Below, one piece after another: positions 26,613-59,826 of a stretch of DNA of 59,826 nt (within the stretch, counting starts at the first letter, position 1; each line of letters begins with the position of its first letter). Location of the stretch: assembly GCA_020854915.1 (NCBI GenBank), contig JAHKLT010000013.1, forward strand, positions 1 to 59,826. Reading direction: 5' to 3'. Under the pieces are notes generated by a model. The model saw nothing but the letters and a program-made list of their open reading frames with translations. It did no database searches and was not told the DNA's origin. This stretch comes from Methanobacteriaceae archaeon. Lineage in GTDB: Archaea; Methanobacteriota; Methanobacteria; Methanobacteriales; Methanobacteriaceae. The position numbers and the translations under genes are program-made.

Positions 26613-27007
26613 TTTTTTTAAATTCATCATTCATTCTTATTTTAAATATATTCTATTTTTAATTTTTATTTTAATTATAGACTTTTTTATTGATTGTTTT
26701 TTATTAGAATAAGATAAATTCATTTTTATTTTGGATAAAACAATTAAATTTATTCTTTTTTTTACTTTTTATTCAAACTTTGTTCTTTAATTATATTTAC
26801 ACTATTTTTTATCTTTTTATGCTTAATACTAAAATATTTAAAGTTTATTTTTTAAAAACTATATGTTTTATGTAGTTATTCATTAAATATAATCTTTTTA
26901 ATACACTATTCTATATAAAAAGCTTTATATACACTTTTAGATAATATATAAATATGTACATGGGGAAAAATAATTTTTCATGTTTTTTATTTTGTGGAGG
27001 TTAAAAT
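26613..27007 (+). promoter_or_regulatory. Intergenic region with promoter and ribosome site of the wall enzyme
   Basis: 395 AT-rich bases. AGCTTTATATACAC (26921-26934) is a strong TATA-box candidate, which places the transcript start near 26955 and gives a leader of about 50 bases. GTGGAGG (26994-27000) is a strong ribosome site with no ATG, GTG or TTG in frame behind it. The only in-frame codons at the right distance are ATT at 27008 and 27011. Confidence 0.6.
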
Positions 27008-30000
27008 ATTATTAAGAAAAATATAGCATTATTTGCATTTGTTTTACTTATTTTCTTTTCGTCTTTAAGTGCAACTTTTGCAATTGATAATAATGAATCT
27101 TTAAATTCATTAGATCAAAGTGATTTTGAATCTTCAGATTTAATTTCTACTAATAATGCTAATAATGTTATTAATCAAAATGAAAATTTTGCTAATTCAA
27201 CTAATTCTGTTTCATCAGATATTAATGATGATGTAATATCAAAAAACTTATATGAATCAAATTATGTTTCTGTAAGTAGTGATGTAATTTCTAAGTTAAA
27301 TTATGATTCTTCAGATGATGATGTTGATAGTAATGTAATTGGTGAATCTAATGTTTCTCTTAATAGTGATGTAATTGGTGAATCAAATGCCTCAGATGAT
27401 GATTCTGATAGTGATGTAATTGGTGAATCTAATTATGTTCTTTCAAATGTCAATGTAGTTGCTGAAGCAAATCAGGCTTCTTCAAAAATTGATACAAAGA
27501 TAGATTCTTCTGATGTTGAAATTTTTTATAAAAATGGAACAAGATTTTCTATTTTATTAAAAGATAAAAATGGTGCGATTTTACCAAATCAAAATGTTGT
27601 TTTCACTGTTAATGGTAACAATTATGAAAAATCAACTGATAAATCTGGTTATGCAAGTATTGCTATCAATTTAAATCCAGGTATATATGATATTAGAATA
27701 ACATTTAAAGAGAATGATCTTTATAATGAATCTAGTGTTTTAAATAAGATTACAGTTAAAAAAACTATTGATGCTAAGGATGTAATCAAATATTATTTAA
27801 ATGGTACTCAATTTTATGCTACTTTTTTAGATGGTAATGGTAATCCTTTAAGTAATCGTAATGTTACTTTTAATATTAATGGTGTTTTTTACACTAGAGC
27901 AACTGATTCTAATGGTGTTGCAAACTTAAACATTAATTTAAATCCAAATGAATATATTCTTACGGCTATTCATCCCGATACTGAGTATTTTTATTCAAAT
28001 AATATAAAAGTACTTCCAACTATTTTAAGTGAAGATATTGTTAAAGGCTATTTAGAAGATAAACAATTTTATGCTACTTTTTTAGATGGTAATGGTAATC
28101 CTTTAAGTAATCGTGATGTTACTTTTAATATTAATGGTGTTTTTTACACTAGAGCAACTGATTCTAATGGTGTTGCAAAGTTAAATATTAATTTAAATCC
28201 AAATGAATATATTTTGACTGCTTTAAATCCTGTTGATAATTTGCAAAGAAGCTATAAAATAACTGTTCTTTCAATTCCTAACTTTTCTATAATTAATTCT
28301 AATTTTATTGAAGGTAAAAACAATAGTTTTGAATTAAGTTTAAAAGTTAATGATGTCTCTATAATTAACCAAGAGATTAAATTTACAATTAATGGTGTTT
28401 CATATATTAGAAAAACTAATGAATTAGGAGTAGCTTCCTTATCTATTAATTTAATTCCTGGAACTTATGATATTTATTATAGTTTCCAAGGGAATTCTAA
28501 AGTTAAGGGAATTAATGGTTCTACCCAAATTAATGTTCTTGCTGATATATCTCCAGTTAACACTCAAGTTAATGCTTATTGGTTATTTGGTGGAGACATG
28601 AAAAAAGTTGACCTTGCTCAACTAAGTTCTAATGGTGTAAATACTGTATTCTTAAACTTCTATGCAATTTCTGCACATGGTAAAAGTAGTGTGGAATCAT
28701 GGATAGCTACTGCAGCTACACATAATATAAAAGTCCATATTTGGATGCAAGCTTTTTATGAAAGTGGATGGATTTTACCTGTAAAAAGTGATGGTACTTA
28801 TAACCAAGAAATCTTTGATAAAAAAGTCAAGGAAGCTATTTCTTATGCTAATATTAAAGGTTTATCTGGTATACATATAGATTATTTAAGATTTAATGGA
28901 AATGCTTATAAGTATTCTAATGGTATTGAAGCTATTAATGAATTCGCTAAAATGATTTCTGAAGAAATTAAAAAAGTTAATCCTAATTTAATCTTATCTG
29001 CAGCGGTAATGCCTGAGACAACTTCAAATCCTACTCATTATGGTCAGGATGTTTCTGTTTTAGGTAAATATTTAGATGTAATTGTTCCTATGATTTATAA
29101 AGGTAATTACAATGCAGACACTTCATGGATTTCTAAAACTACTAATTGGTTTGTAGCTAATTCTGCAGGAGCTCAAGTTTGGGTAGGTTTACAAGGATAT
29201 GTTTCTGATTGGGATGATAAATTTTTATCTCATTCTGAATTATCTAATGATGCCCAAACTGCTTATGATGCAGGAGCATATGGTGTTAGTATTTTCAGAT
29301 TTGGTGCAAGTAATATTATTAATTTTAATAATATCAAAATCCCTTCTAATCCAGAAGATGGCGTTGTTGGAGAATCTGTTTCTTCACAGGATATTATTAA
29401 AGCAGCTTCTGAATTAAAGACACATATAGAAAAAAATGGAATATTGCCTGTTTCTATTTCTGTTAATGGAAAAATCATTTCAGTTTCTGAATTTTTATAT
29501 TTAATGGCTAAGGTAATTGCTAATTATGAATCTGGTAATAAAAACTTTGGTATTGTTTTAGTTTCTGCACCTGATGATTCTAAAGGAGACAAAATTCTTA
29601 GTCAACTTAATAAAAAAGATTATTTAACTGTTGCTTCAGAAATTATTAGAATTGTAGATTCAAATAAAAAAGCACCTACTAATGTAACTAGTCCTATTGG
29701 AAATATTCAATACAACACTTTAGTTTATTCATTTTCCAAAATTTTAAACTTCATTGGGTCTTCAAATTCTTTACCTAACTATGTTTATACTACAGATTTA
29801 TTAGATAATTATATGCTTACTGTCACTATGAAACCTAGTGCTTCAAATTTAAATGGTCAATATCAATCTATTTATTACACTACTACTTGGCTTAATCATT
29901 GCCCTAATTGTGGATATTATGGTACTTTATTAATTAATCCTAAAGGTGTTCCTGAAGGAGAATTAACTTGTGCCTGTTGTGATTCTGATTATTGTGGTGT

Positions 30001-30934
30001 TTCTGGATTTGAAAAAATTCATAGTGCTGATCGTAAATCTTTAACTAAAATTAGTTCTGAAGGTACTAATCAAGTTGGAAGTTCTGGTGATTCTTTTGCT
30101 ATCAATGATATTTTAGATATGTCAGTTCGTTTGAAAAATTATATTTCTTCTAATGATAGATTACCAAATTATGTAACTCTTAAAGATAAACAATATTCTA
30201 TGGCAGAAGCATTATATTTAATGACTTCTGCAACTTTGAATATTAATAATGGTAATTTTTCAAATATTAAAGCTATTAATGCTTCTGATGCTCCAAGTCC
30301 TGAAGGAGATCTTATTAATTCTAATCTCAATAAGACAAATTATCTTGATCTTGCAAATAGGATTATGAATTTTATTAAAACAAATGGTTATGCTCCTAAT
30401 TTTGCTTCTAGCTCTATTGGTAAAGTTATATTTTCTGAATTAGTTGATTCTTATTCAAGAATATTATCATATTATAAAGATAATGATAATAATTTACCAG
30501 CTCAGGTAGCTATAAAATATTCTGGAGGATCTAGTAAATCTATATCTGATTTAGCTAAATCTTTAACAAAAGATCTTACATCTGATTTAGAAAAAGCTAC
30601 TGCTTTATTTAATTATGTTAGAGATAAGATAGGTTATAGCTATTATGAAAATACTAGAAAAGGAGCTGAAGGTACTTTACTTTCTGGTTCTGCTAATTGT
30701 TGTGATATGTCTCATTTATTAGTAGCTCTTGCAAGATCTAGTGGATTAACAGTTAATTATGCTCATGGAAAATGTCAGTTTAGCACTTTTAGTGTTGGGC
30801 ATGTATGGGTTGAATTCACAATAGGTGGTAAAACTTATTCTGCTGATCCTTCTAGTGCTAGAAATTCATTTGGTTCTATTAAAAGTTGGAGTCTTATAAC
30901 TTTTTATAATCGTCATGAGACTTTACCATTCTAA
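27008..30934 (+). CDS. Secreted pseudomurein-active multidomain protein, apparent ATT start
   Basis: 1308 residues if begun at ATT 27008. Order of parts: signal peptide (about 1-26, ending SATFA); a Ser/Asp/Asn-rich spacer with VIGESN repeats; four Ig-like repeats (about 175-510; YATFLDGNGNPLSNR); a TIM-barrel glycosidase-like domain (about 517-767; HIWMQAFYE, GIHIDYLRF, VPMIYKG). Then come pseudomurein-binding repeats near 790, 866, 1029 and 1110, with a Cys-rich knuckle (CPNCGYY to CACCDSDYC) near 964-997. A transglutaminase-fold domain (1175-1308) ends the protein, with Cys1231, His1265 and Asp1280. That domain resembles PeiW/PeiP endoisopeptidases, which cut pseudomurein peptides. A wall-remodelling or autolysin role is inferred. 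There are 402 open codons before the first in-frame ATG/GTG/TTG. Confidence 0.88.
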   Translation: MIKKNIALFAFVLLIFFSSLSATFAIDNNESLNSLDQSDFESSDLISTNNANNVINQNENFANSTNSVSSDINDDVISKNLYESNYVSVSSDVISKLNYDSSDDDVDSNVIGESNVSLNSDVIGESNASDDDSDSDVIGESNYVLSNVNVVAEANQASSKIDTKIDSSDVEIFYKNGTRFSILLKDKNGAILPNQNVVFTVNGNNYEKSTDKSGYASIAINLNPGIYDIRITFKENDLYNESSVLNKITVKKTIDAKDVIKYYLNGTQFYATFLDGNGNPLSNRNVTFNINGVFYTRATDSNGVANLNINLNPNEYILTAIHPDTEYFYSNNIKVLPTILSEDIVKGYLEDKQFYATFLDGNGNPLSNRDVTFNINGVFYTRATDSNGVAKLNINLNPNEYILTALNPVDNLQRSYKITVLSIPNFSIINSNFIEGKNNSFELSLKVNDVSIINQEIKFTINGVSYIRKTNELGVASLSINLIPGTYDIYYSFQGNSKVKGINGSTQINVLADISPVNTQVNAYWLFGGDMKKVDLAQLSSNGVNTVFLNFYAISAHGKSSVESWIATAATHNIKVHIWMQAFYESGWILPVKSDGTYNQEIFDKKVKEAISYANIKGLSGIHIDYLRFNGNAYKYSNGIEAINEFAKMISEEIKKVNPNLILSAAVMPETTSNPTHYGQDVSVLGKYLDVIVPMIYKGNYNADTSWISKTTNWFVANSAGAQVWVGLQGYVSDWDDKFLSHSELSNDAQTAYDAGAYGVSIFRFGASNIINFNNIKIPSNPEDGVVGESVSSQDIIKAASELKTHIEKNGILPVSISVNGKIISVSEFLYLMAKVIANYESGNKNFGIVLVSAPDDSKGDKILSQLNKKDYLTVASEIIRIVDSNKKAPTNVTSPIGNIQYNTLVYSFSKILNFIGSSNSLPNYVYTTDLLDNYMLTVTMKPSASNLNGQYQSIYYTTTWLNHCPNCGYYGTLLINPKGVPEGELTCACCDSDYCGVSGFEKIHSADRKSLTKISSEGTNQVGSSGDSFAINDILDMSVRLKNYISSNDRLPNYVTLKDKQYSMAEALYLMTSATLNINNGNFSNIKAINASDAPSPEGDLINSNLNKTNYLDLANRIMNFIKTNGYAPNFASSSIGKVIFSELVDSYSRILSYYKDNDNNLPAQVAIKYSGGSSKSISDLAKSLTKDLTSDLEKATALFNYVRDKIGYSYYENTRKGAEGTLLSGSANCCDMSHLLVALARSSGLTVNYAHGKCQFSTFSVGHVWVEFTIGGKTYSADPSSARNSFGSIKSWSLITFYNRHETLPF
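27809..28214 (+). repeat. Direct 151-bp repeat pair encoding Ig-like modules
   Basis: 27809-27959 and 28064-28214 are almost identical, differing by a few bases (for example SNRNVT versus SNRDVT). Each encodes one Ig-like module. The identity is far higher than for the flanking modules, so this is a recent internal duplication and could recombine to change module number. Confidence 0.85.
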
Positions 30935-55744: not shown

Positions 55745-55753
55745 ATTGATATT

Positions 55754-58700
55754 ATGATATTTAAAAAGAGGATATTGAAAATATTAATAGTAATATTTGT
55801 ATTACTATTAGGTTTAAATACTGTAAGTGCTGAAGGAAACTTCACAGATTTACAAGATACGATAGACAACAATCAAAATAATGTTGATTTAGATAAAGAT
55901 TATAAATTTAATAATAATATTGACACTGCTTATGTAGATGGTGTTAATGTAAAGTATGATAATTATGTTCTTGATGGTAAGGGATATACAATAAATGGTA
56001 ATAATGAAGCAAGAATATTTCAAATAACTGGTGAAAATGTAACAATAAAAAATGTGAATTTAATAAACGGAAAAACAACAAATAATGGAGGAGCAATATA
56101 CACACAAACAAACAATTTAAAAATAATAAACACCACCTTCACAAATAACGTCGCAAATTTGGGTGGTGCAATAAGTGCAACTAATGTAAATGTTACTGGT
56201 TCTAGTTTCACAGACAACACCGCAACAAGACAGGGTGGTGCAATAAATGCAAATAATGTAAATGTTACTGGTTCTAATTTCACAGGTAACACCGCAAGAA
56301 GCTGGGGTGGTGCAATATTTGCAAATAATGTAAATGTTACTGGTTCTAAATTCACAATTAACACCGCAAATTATGGTGGTGCAATATTTGCAGCTAATTA
56401 TACTTATAATGTGGAAATTACTGATTCTAATTTCACAAATAACACCGCAAATTATGGTGGTGCAATATATACAACTAATGTAAATGTTACTGGTTCTAAT
56501 TTCATAGGCAACACCGCAACATACCGGGGTGGTGCAATAGATGCATATAATGTGAATGTTACTGGTTCTAATTTCATAAATAACACCGCAAATGTGGGTG
56601 GTGCAATATGGGCAAATAATGATGTGATTGTTTCTGGTTCTAATTTCACAGGCAACACCGCACGTTATGATGGTGGTGCAATATGGGCAAATAATGATGT
56701 GATTGTTACTGGTTCTGATTTCATAAATAACACCGCAAACCAGGTTGGTGGTGCAATAAGTGCAACTAATAATGTGGAAGTTATTGGTTCTAATTTCACA
56801 GGCAACACCGCAAACCAGGATGGTGGTGCAATACATTCAGATAATGATGTGAATGTTACTGGTTCTAATTTCACAGTCAACACCGCATTTCAGGGTGGTG
56901 CAATAAGTGCAAATAATGTGATTGTTACTGATTCTAATTTCATGAATAACACCGCAACAAGAGGGGGTGGTGCAATAGATGCATATAATGATGTGATTGT
57001 TATTGGTTCTAATTTCACAAATAACACTGCAAATTTTGGTGGTGTAATATATGCAGATAATGATGTGGATGTTATTGGTTCTAATTTCATGAATAACACC
57101 GCAAATTATAGTGGTGGTGTAATAAGTGCAACTAATAATGTGAATGTTACTGCTTCTAATTTCATAAATAACACCGCAAATAATGGTGATGGTGGTGCAA
57201 TAAGTGCATATAATGATGTGAATATTATTAGTTCTAATTTCATAAATAACACCGCAAATAATGATTATGGTAGTGCAATAAGTGCAGATGGTGGTGCAAT
57301 AAGTGCAGATAATGATGTGAATGTTACTGCTTCTAATTTCATAGGCAACACCGCACAAGATGGTGGTGGTGGTGCAATATATGCAGATAATGATGTGAAT
57401 GTTATTGGTTCTAATTTCATAGGCAACACCGCAAATGATAATGGTGGTGCAATATTTACATATAATGATGTGAATGTTATTGGTTCTAATTTCATAGGCA
57501 ATACCGCAAATTTTGGTGGTGCAATATTTACATATAATGATGTGAATGTTTCTGCTTCTAATTTCATAGGCAATACCGCACAAGATGGTAGTGGTGGTGC
57601 AATATTTACATATAATGATGTGAATGTTTCTGCTTCTAATTTCATAGGCAATACCGCAAATTTTGGTGGTGCAATATTTACATATAATGATGTGAATGTT
57701 TCTGCTTCTAATTTCATAGGCAATACCGCACAAGATGGTAGTGGTGGTGCAATATATGCAGATAATGATGTGAATGTTACTGGTTCTAATTTCACAAATA
57801 ACACCTCAAATTTTGGTGGTGCAATACGTGCAACTAATGATGTGAATGTTATTGGTTCTAATTTCATAAATAACACCTCAACATACGATGGTGGTGCAAT
57901 ATATGCAGATAGTGTAAATGTTTCTGATTCTAATTTCATAGGCAACATCGTATACTGGGGTGATGGTGGTGCAATATATGCATCTGATTATTTAAGTGGT
58001 AATACTTATGTAAGTGTTACTGGTTATGTAAGTGTTTCTGGTTCTAATTTTACAGACAACACCGCACAAGATGGTAGTGGTGGTGCAATATATGCAAAGA
58101 ATATGAATGTTACTAGTTCTAATTTCACATCCAACACTGCAACATATTGGGGTGGTGCAATAAGTGCATTTAATGTGAATGTTATTGGTTCTAATTTCAT
58201 AGGCAACACCGCAACAAACTGGGGTGGTGCAATAAGTGCAGGTAGTGTAAATGTTACTGGTTCTAGTTTCACAGGCAACACTGCAACATACTTGGGTGGT
58301 GCAATACATGCAACTAAAGATGTAAATGTTTCTGCTTCTAATTTCACAGGTAACACCGCACAAGATGGTATTGGTGGTGCAATAAATGCAGATAATGTAA
58401 ATGTTACTGGTTCTAATTTCATAGGTAATACCGCAGCATACTTGGGTGGTGCGATAATTGCAGATAATAATTTAAATGTTGTTGGTTCTAATTTCATAGG
58501 TAACACCGCAGAGTATGGTGGTGCAATATATGTGCATGGAAATATAACTGAAATAATGAATGGTATATTTGATGGAAACTCTGCTGTTAATGGTTCTGCA
58601 ATTTATACATCTGGAGTAAATACTTATTTAACAAACTTGACCTTTTTATATAATCAAGCATATTCCTATGCATTACCAATTTTAGTTGAACCAAAATATG

Positions 58701-59826
58701 AATATAATATTCCTGTTGAGATAATAATAGTTCTTATTGGTGGGAATAATATTGTAAATGCAATATATAATGTTCAAGATTCTAATTCAATTGAATTTCA
58801 TAATGTTACATATGTTACAGTTAATGGTATGAGAACTACAGGGCCCGATGAAATACATCCTGTTATTGGAGCAGAAAATAGTCAAAATGGTACAATATTG
58901 TATCAAGATAGTCGTGAATTTATACAAGACCTTTTTACTATTGTTGTTTTTGATGAAAATGGTAATGTGGTTTTAAATGTAACTAATAAAACAAATATTT
59001 ATGGTAATGTTTCTTATATTTTAAATGGTTTGGAACCAGGTAATTATACTATAACTTCAACTCATCCTGAAGATAGCTTTTATAAAGGTATTACTAATAC
59101 AACAACTTTTATAGTTGAGCCATTAGTAAATTTAGCAGTTAATATAACTACAGTTTATAATGTTTATTATGTTGATGATGAAATTATTTGGTATATAAAC
59201 TTAACAAATTATGGCCCACATAATGATAGAAATGTACGTGTTTCTACTTTATTTGATAATAATGTAGATTATATAGGTTATACTGCTTCAAAAGGAACTT
59301 ATGATCCAAACACAGGTATTTGGTCTATTGAGTACTTGAATAAAAGTGAAGTAGTTACTTTAATTATAAGAACAAAAGCTCTTTCTGTTGGAAATACAAC
59401 ATTAACTGTTAATGCAACAGGTGAATATACAGAGAATAATTTAACAAATAATATAGCTAATCATACAGTACAAATCATTGATTTAACATTAAATAAAACT
59501 GCTAATATTACTAATCCTAATTTTGGTGATAATGTTGGGTATACTGTTACTATTGTAAATAATGCTAATGTTATTGCTAATAATATTCTTGTTCGTGATA
59601 CTTTAGGTGCTGGTTTAGAGTATGTTAGTGCTAGTGATAATGGCGTTTATGATCCTGTTACTCGTACTATAACTTGGACTGTTGATTTAGCTGCTGGTGA
59701 AACTAAGAATTTTACTGTTGTTGCTAATGTTGTTTCTTATGGTGTTTTAAATAATACTGTTACTGTTGGTAATAAAAATAAAGTTGTTAATGTTACTGTT
59801 CCTGAGGTTGTTCCTGATAAGACTGT
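55754..59826 (+). CDS. Giant secreted beta-helix adhesin-like protein, 5' part
   Basis: Open from ATG 55754 to the window end: at least 1357 residues without a stop. Signal peptide about 1-27 (KKRILKILIVIFVLLLGLNTVSA), then a short N-terminal domain, then about 33 rungs of the type GGAI-x-ADNDVNVTGSNFIGNTA (residues about 100-925), a right-handed parallel beta-helix. Ig-like and DUF11-type domains follow (DLTLNKTANITNPNFGDNVGYTV). GGAGG (55734-55738) lies 15 bases upstream, a long gap. ATT at 55745 is in frame at the usual distance, so the true start may be ATT (MDIMIFKKR) or ATG 55754. Surface adhesin of the Methanobrevibacter type; substrate unknown. Confidence 0.9.
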   Translation, partial: MIFKKRILKILIVIFVLLLGLNTVSAEGNFTDLQDTIDNNQNNVDLDKDYKFNNNIDTAYVDGVNVKYDNYVLDGKGYTINGNNEARIFQITGENVTIKNVNLINGKTTNNGGAIYTQTNNLKIINTTFTNNVANLGGAISATNVNVTGSSFTDNTATRQGGAINANNVNVTGSNFTGNTARSWGGAIFANNVNVTGSKFTINTANYGGAIFAANYTYNVEITDSNFTNNTANYGGAIYTTNVNVTGSNFIGNTATYRGGAIDAYNVNVTGSNFINNTANVGGAIWANNDVIVSGSNFTGNTARYDGGAIWANNDVIVTGSDFINNTANQVGGAISATNNVEVIGSNFTGNTANQDGGAIHSDNDVNVTGSNFTVNTAFQGGAISANNVIVTDSNFMNNTATRGGGAIDAYNDVIVIGSNFTNNTANFGGVIYADNDVDVIGSNFMNNTANYSGGVISATNNVNVTASNFINNTANNGDGGAISAYNDVNIISSNFINNTANNDYGSAISADGGAISADNDVNVTASNFIGNTAQDGGGGAIYADNDVNVIGSNFIGNTANDNGGAIFTYNDVNVIGSNFIGNTANFGGAIFTYNDVNVSASNFIGNTAQDGSGGAIFTYNDVNVSASNFIGNTANFGGAIFTYNDVNVSASNFIGNTAQDGSGGAIYADNDVNVTGSNFTNNTSNFGGAIRATNDVNVIGSNFINNTSTYDGGAIYADSVNVSDSNFIGNIVYWGDGGAIYASDYLSGNTYVSVTGYVSVSGSNFTDNTAQDGSGGAIYAKNMNVTSSNFTSNTATYWGGAISAFNVNVIGSNFIGNTATNWGGAISAGSVNVTGSSFTGNTATYLGGAIHATKDVNVSASNFTGNTAQDGIGGAINADNVNVTGSNFIGNTAAYLGGAIIADNNLNVVGSNFIGNTAEYGGAIYVHGNITEIMNGIFDGNSAVNGSAIYTSGVNTYLTNLTFLYNQAYSYALPILVEPKYEYNIPVEIIIVLIGGNNIVNAIYNVQDSNSIEFHNVTYVTVNGMRTTGPDEIHPVIGAENSQNGTILYQDSREFIQDLFTIVVFDENGNVVLNVTNKTNIYGNVSYILNGLEPGNYTITSTHPEDSFYKGITNTTTFIVEPLVNLAVNITTVYNVYYVDDEIIWYINLTNYGPHNDRNVRVSTLFDNNVDYIGYTASKGTYDPNTGIWSIEYLNKSEVVTLIIRTKALSVGNTTLTVNATGEYTENNLTNNIANHTVQIIDLTLNKTANITNPNFGDNVGYTVTIVNNANVIANNILVRDTLGAGLEYVSASDNGVYDPVTRTITWTVDLAAGETKNFTVVANVVSYGVLNNTVTVGNKNKVVNVTVPEVVPDKT
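56050..58530 (+). repeat. Tandem repeats encoding beta-helix rungs
   Basis: About 33 imperfect units, mostly 69-81 bases, each encoding one rung. Identity is highest in 57508-57750, where two 150-bp double-units are almost exact copies (57508-57657 and from 57658), showing recent duplication by slippage or recombination. Their GC-richer core TGGTGGTGCAATA makes long reverse-strand frames that are not genes. Confidence 0.9.

Follow-up and report, generated by a model that had tools for sequence, protein, structure and literature searches.

Near-cognate start codons appear to be preferred for exported proteins in Methanobacteriales: a candidate AUU start in a secreted wall protein gene

The window, a stretch of 59,826 nucleotides from a gut-type methanogen (Methanobacteriaceae archaeon), contains a gene of 1308 sense codons whose frame is free of stops from ATT 27008 to the stop codon at 30932-30934 (Table 1). 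The initial annotation had described a secreted wall enzyme lacking ATG, GTG and TTG in the first 402 codons. The sequence was re-read, and the first such codon in frame is indeed the TTG at 28214-28216, codon index 402; GTGGAGG at 26994-27000, TAA at 27002-27004 and the ATT triplets at both 27008 and 27011 are likewise where they had been placed. Because the TAA is in frame, there is no usable start upstream. Elsewhere in the gene, canonical starts have a density of 2.1%; at that density, 402 consecutive codons lacking one have a probability of about 2e-4.

Table 1. Features of the 1308-codon gene and its leader, and a second AUU candidate in the window.
Feature	Position	Strand	Basis and remarks
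TATA-box-like promoter element TTTATATA	26924..26931	+	Putative, from sequence; transcript start expected ~25 nt downstream
Leader hairpin ACATGGGGAAAAATAATTTTTCATGT	26958..26983	+	Hairpin of different sequence at this site in relatives
Shine-Dalgarno (SD) GGAGGT	26996..27001	+	Last G of GGAGG (26996-27000) lies 7 nt before ATT 27008
In-frame TAA barring any upstream start	27002..27004	+	Sequence
ATT, probable start codon (AUU)	27008..27010	+	SD spacing 7; recurrence in the order
Second ATT, alternative start	27011..27013	+	SD spacing 10; TTG here in nearest relatives
Signal peptide IIKKNIALFAFVLLIFFSSLSATFA	27008..27082	+	Sequence and hydropathy rule; predicted cleavage after A25
Ig-like/MG4-like repeats (Big_1, Big_3_5, MG4)	27494..28537	+	Pfam; mostly before the first canonical start
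First in-frame canonical codon, TTG	28214..28216	+	A start here loses the signal peptide and most Ig-like domains
DUF4015 putative glycosyl hydrolase domain	28799..29137	+	Pfam
Best of four pseudomurein-binding repeats (PMBR)	30098..30178	+	Pfam
Transglutaminase-like core	30548..30835	+	Pfam
Second AUU candidate GGAGGTTTATA-ATT-GAT-ATT-ATG	55745..59824	+	Secreted, 1360 residues; SD spacing 6; ATG three codons on also possible

The predicted product fits the earlier description as a secreted wall enzyme, as it combines a signal peptide with Ig-like domains, a DUF4015 glycosidase-like domain, pseudomurein-binding repeats and a transglutaminase core. The repeats match PF09373 in four stretches with an E-value of 7.9e-27, and the signal peptide at residues 1-25, which the initial annotation had also noted, is supported by the sequence and by the home-made hydropathy rule with which signal peptides were called throughout this study. 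The full-length protein did not match any solved structure by sequence. A relative of the glycosidase-like domain with 55% identity is present in a Verrucomicrobia MAG (CAMNLN010000053.1), reflecting either transfer or contamination. Automated gene callers usually take only ATG, GTG or TTG, and would thus place the start at TTG 28214. Such a start would cost the protein its signal peptide and most of the Pfam Ig-like domains, which begin at about residue 163, and in a paralog from the same genome (contig C46) the first canonical codon lies 215 codons in. Translation from TTG 28214 therefore deserves almost no credence; the signal peptide and Ig-like domains upstream of it argue for translation beginning in the AUU region.

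The SD of the window gene is complementary to the 3' end of 16S rRNA, and its spacing of 7 nt is the mode for ATG genes, yet the codon at 27008 is ATT and not the AUG, GUG or UUG of an SD-led archaeal start. Close homologs of the window protein occur in many Methanobrevibacter genomes. Where the start can be read, their leader is GGAGG-TAAAAT-ATT-TTG-AAA-AAA or similar, with ATT 6-7 nt past the SD; AAT-TTG stands there in one relative and ATT-ATT in the window species, and in a second homolog in genome G005 ATT-TCG replaces ATT-TTG. In the closest relatives, an ATT equally far from the SD precedes TTG, which makes ATT 27008 a better start candidate than ATT 27011. The TTG directly after ATT in the nearest orthologs may itself be the start there; the relatives could thus use either codon, whereas in the window gene only AUU would remain.

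The initial annotation had offered two options, initiation at AUU or recent loss of the start. In the latter case, ATG or TTG would have turned into ATT in a gene on its way to becoming a pseudogene, or the assembly would be in error, which is conceivable since the window genome is a single MAG in a 75-contig assembly and since TTG lies one codon downstream of ATT in the nearest orthologs. A comparison with relatives, as had been proposed, found ATG at the position of ATT 27008 in none of the 12 starts inspected, ATT in 11 and AAT in one. With an intact frame of 1308 codons and an ATT shared by relatives, the gene does not have the marks of a pseudogene.

The leader also carries a hairpin between the promoter-like element and the SD. 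Across six relatives, three of its seven pairs show double-sided change with pairing kept, which amounts to modest statistical support, and hairpin energies alone are unremarkable (most z between 0 and -2.6). Hairpins between promoter and SD, differing in sequence with the pairing preserved, were also found in the leaders of loci L017-L026, L161, L048, L061 and L063, and a search of nine loci against Rfam gave no known RNA family. A role of the hairpin as an mRNA-stabilising or regulatory element is possible.

The codon at the SD-optimal position was then tabulated across some 540 kb of this genome for SDs of at least six bases and frames of at least 120 codons, with codon identity unconditioned and the sample partly picked for surface genes. 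Seven nucleotides past a strong SD, ATG was found 34 times, TTG 12 times, GTG five times, ATT seven times and three other codons once each. ATT (7/10) is thus the only non-canonical codon enriched at this spacing; at an ATT codon frequency of about 6%, a hand calculation gives a probability of about 4e-7 for seven ATT among ten. One of the seven sites (L165) may be spurious, and most of the others precede secreted proteins. One belongs to a non-secreted AAA/DUF4143 ATPase (L155:1415-2602, contig C37), which has an SD-ATT-ATT start and 73 codons without a canonical codon. Genes with AUH starts (H = A, C or U) in this genome encode secreted proteins in 7 of 10 cases, and those with canonical starts in 7 of 64 (Fisher p 1.7e-4). 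Secreted genes with ATG are likewise common in grid samples, so AUH genes are a minority class among the secreted genes.

Recurrence beyond this genome was followed with search patterns that fix the first two start bases as AU, and several of the samples were gathered by motif; the assignments of sampled genomes to genera and families (g3, g5, f1-f3) are our inferences. The pattern GGNGRNAAWATTTCG is present in 87 of 150 genomes, its control giving far fewer matches, and the loci inspected usually lie at SD-ATT-TCG with a signal peptide next. A search with GAGGTGRAAAAAT[G/T] gave ATG sites with varied second codons, and listed ATT sites that mostly continue with TC[G/A/T] (about 45 of 59, counted by eye); a search with GGAGGTGRAAATATN found ATC, ATT and ATA alongside ATG. 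AUU-UCG recurs from the window genome to families f2 and f3, and across the order the second codon is often UCG (rare here) after AUU and AAA after AUC. In the context of a strong SD and Lys-Lys (GGAGGTGANNNNATHAARAA), 35 AUH sites were found in 152 genomes of the phylum, compared with 15 for the AUG form and three for the control; in genus g5 the same context yielded 18 AUH and no AUG sites. The AUH pattern is present in many genera, including in single-contig genomes.

A link to export was evident in these samples. Among the long frames at SD-matched sites in the fetched loci, 51 of 53 AUH frames begin with a signal peptide vs 2 of 16 AUG frames, and counted per N-terminally anchored family the figures are 20 of 21 for AUH and 2 of 11 for AUG (p 1.8e-5). 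Frames of at least 60 codons behind SD, AUH and Lys-Lys have a signal peptide in 27 of 28 cases; one of these frames comes from G037, which represents the sister family. Viral contigs from IMG/VR, searched with these motifs as an outside control, gave 88 sites and 25 long frames, none with a signal peptide. In 23 genomes of another archaeal phylum, a search gave two AUG sites and no AUH site, a yield too small to weigh either way. The one exception is a family with the non-secreted frame INFKNMRDR..., which has an SD-ATC start in two genomes (L279, L280). Taken over the order, near-cognate starts look to be used preferentially for exported proteins, as a real rule and not the mark of a broken gene.

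The window gene is therefore not an isolated case, which makes a recent loss of its start unlikely: several more AUU or AUC genes lie in the same genome and dozens elsewhere, and neither a sequencing error nor a recent loss accounts for a recurrence in many genera and in single-contig genomes. We consider start loss or assembly error very improbable. Of the two options, initiation at AUU is strongly favoured by the recurrence within the genome and across genera, and we infer with considerable confidence that translation of the window gene starts at AUU 27008.

Within gene families, the codon at the start position varies. The clearest family is a secreted CobN-type chelatase, which at an SD spacing of 7-8 has ATC, ATA, ATT or ACG according to species; in genus g3 the codon is ATG or GTG. 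CobN/Mg-chelatase-like loci with ATC, ATA, ATT or ACG include L145:8145-13097 in the window genome (contig C3), L342-L371 and L209, and in G031, from another family of the order, the CobN-type gene also starts with ATC. Other families have ATC, ATT and ATA mixed, with ATG absent. Such interchange among orthologs is expected if the codons act as near-cognate starts. It also bears on a rival explanation, in which ribosomes start at an upstream or SD-overlapping ATG or GTG and enter the ATT frame by a programmed frameshift on the A-rich spacer. Several leaders do carry a GTG or ATG that lies within or immediately ahead of the SD, together with an A-run in front of ATT, but the frame relation of the upstream codon, judged by eye, varies among members, whereas the distance from SD to AUH stays near 7. 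Nor could an obvious slippery site be seen by eye in GTT-AAA-ATA of the window. Lacking a conserved frame relation and such a site, the programmed frameshift was set aside, as still less probable than the loss of a start.

The simplest mechanism for initiation at AUU would be near-cognate initiation with Met-tRNAi, placed by the SD. The strong SD would bring AUU 27008 into the P site, where the usual initiator tRNA (CAU) would pair with its first two bases. With the third base tolerated, the protein would begin with methionine. The initiator tRNA of genome G021 is ordinary, with A1-U72, a G-C-rich anticodon stem and CAU, and no second one was seen among most of the tRNA matches there. In the same matches a special initiator with an Ile-type anticodon was sought and rejected: the anticodon of the G021 initiator is CAU, and the one tRNA-Ile(GAU) present among them has the look of an elongator. 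By the same mechanism AUU, AUC, AUA and sometimes ACG would be used at normal SD spacing throughout Methanobacteriales, chiefly where the protein has an N-terminal signal peptide.

The AUH starts might be real and yet functionless, arising from weaker selection for AUG on surface genes and drift to near-cognate codons. Surface proteins evolve fast and CobN carries ATG or GTG in genus g3, as drift would have it; on the other hand, the AUU-UCG context is maintained across families f1-f3, AUH genes have a strong SD, AUH exceeds AUG in the context of SD and Lys-Lys, and AUH is rare among non-secreted genes. We regard drift as somewhat unlikely. A weak start behind a strong SD is not the simplest route to lower expression, and the combination suggests a rate-limiting or regulatory step over simple low expression. 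Strong ribosome recruitment together with a slow or factor-sensitive commitment step would then pace or co-regulate the synthesis of exported wall proteins. Archaeal aIF1 reportedly influences fidelity against non-AUG codons (PMC6237735), which makes an aIF1-sensitive control of AUH starts plausible. That the AUH class functions in the control of secretion is put forward tentatively. In its widest form the proposal, equally short of even odds, is that Methanobacteriales, and probably the G037 sister family, have a separate AUU/AUC/AUA/ACG class for Sec-exported proteins, marked by a strong SD and a fixed context (AUU-UCG, AUC-AAA), and that the secretome may be paced or switched as a block via start-codon fidelity, e.g. 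by the level of aIF1.

If this holds, gene callers limited to ATG, GTG and TTG clip or mis-start part of what the main methanogens of gut, rumen and digester export, and the signal peptides of these proteins then stay hidden from vaccine and adhesion studies, and the role of start-codon fidelity in archaea becomes directly testable. To our knowledge, there is no earlier case of start-codon identity partitioned by protein destination. A literature search, covering mostly journals without subscription, did not turn up any account of AUH starts in Methanobacteriales. Among 36 prokaryotic groups, Methanococci included, AUG-to-AUU switches numbered 1 in 61,358 (PMC5622118), and a review of archaeal initiation names, in the passages retrieved, only AUG, GUG and UUG as archaeal starts (PMC7531240). 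In the AUH genes the SD, the spacing and the initiator tRNA are nevertheless those of ordinary archaeal SD-led initiation, and by its domains the window product belongs with the PMBR/transglutaminase wall proteins of Methanobacteriales, the start codon alone being unusual.

Escherichia coli infC and pcnB have an AUU start with a good SD, are initiated with methionine and have a weak or factor-sensitive start, with IF3 controlling the infC type. The window gene resembles them, as read from its sequence, in having AUU at a good SD. In contrast to these isolated bacterial genes and their IF3, the present class is archaeal, comprises many genes, extends to AUC, AUA and ACG, and is linked to signal peptides. 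In Streptomyces, the GTC start of sigR is repressed by IF3 (PMC5472188). The use of a non-canonical start as a regulatory device acting through a fidelity factor, as in sigR, is here a proposal, and sigR differs in being one gene for a cytoplasmic sigma factor under bacterial IF3.
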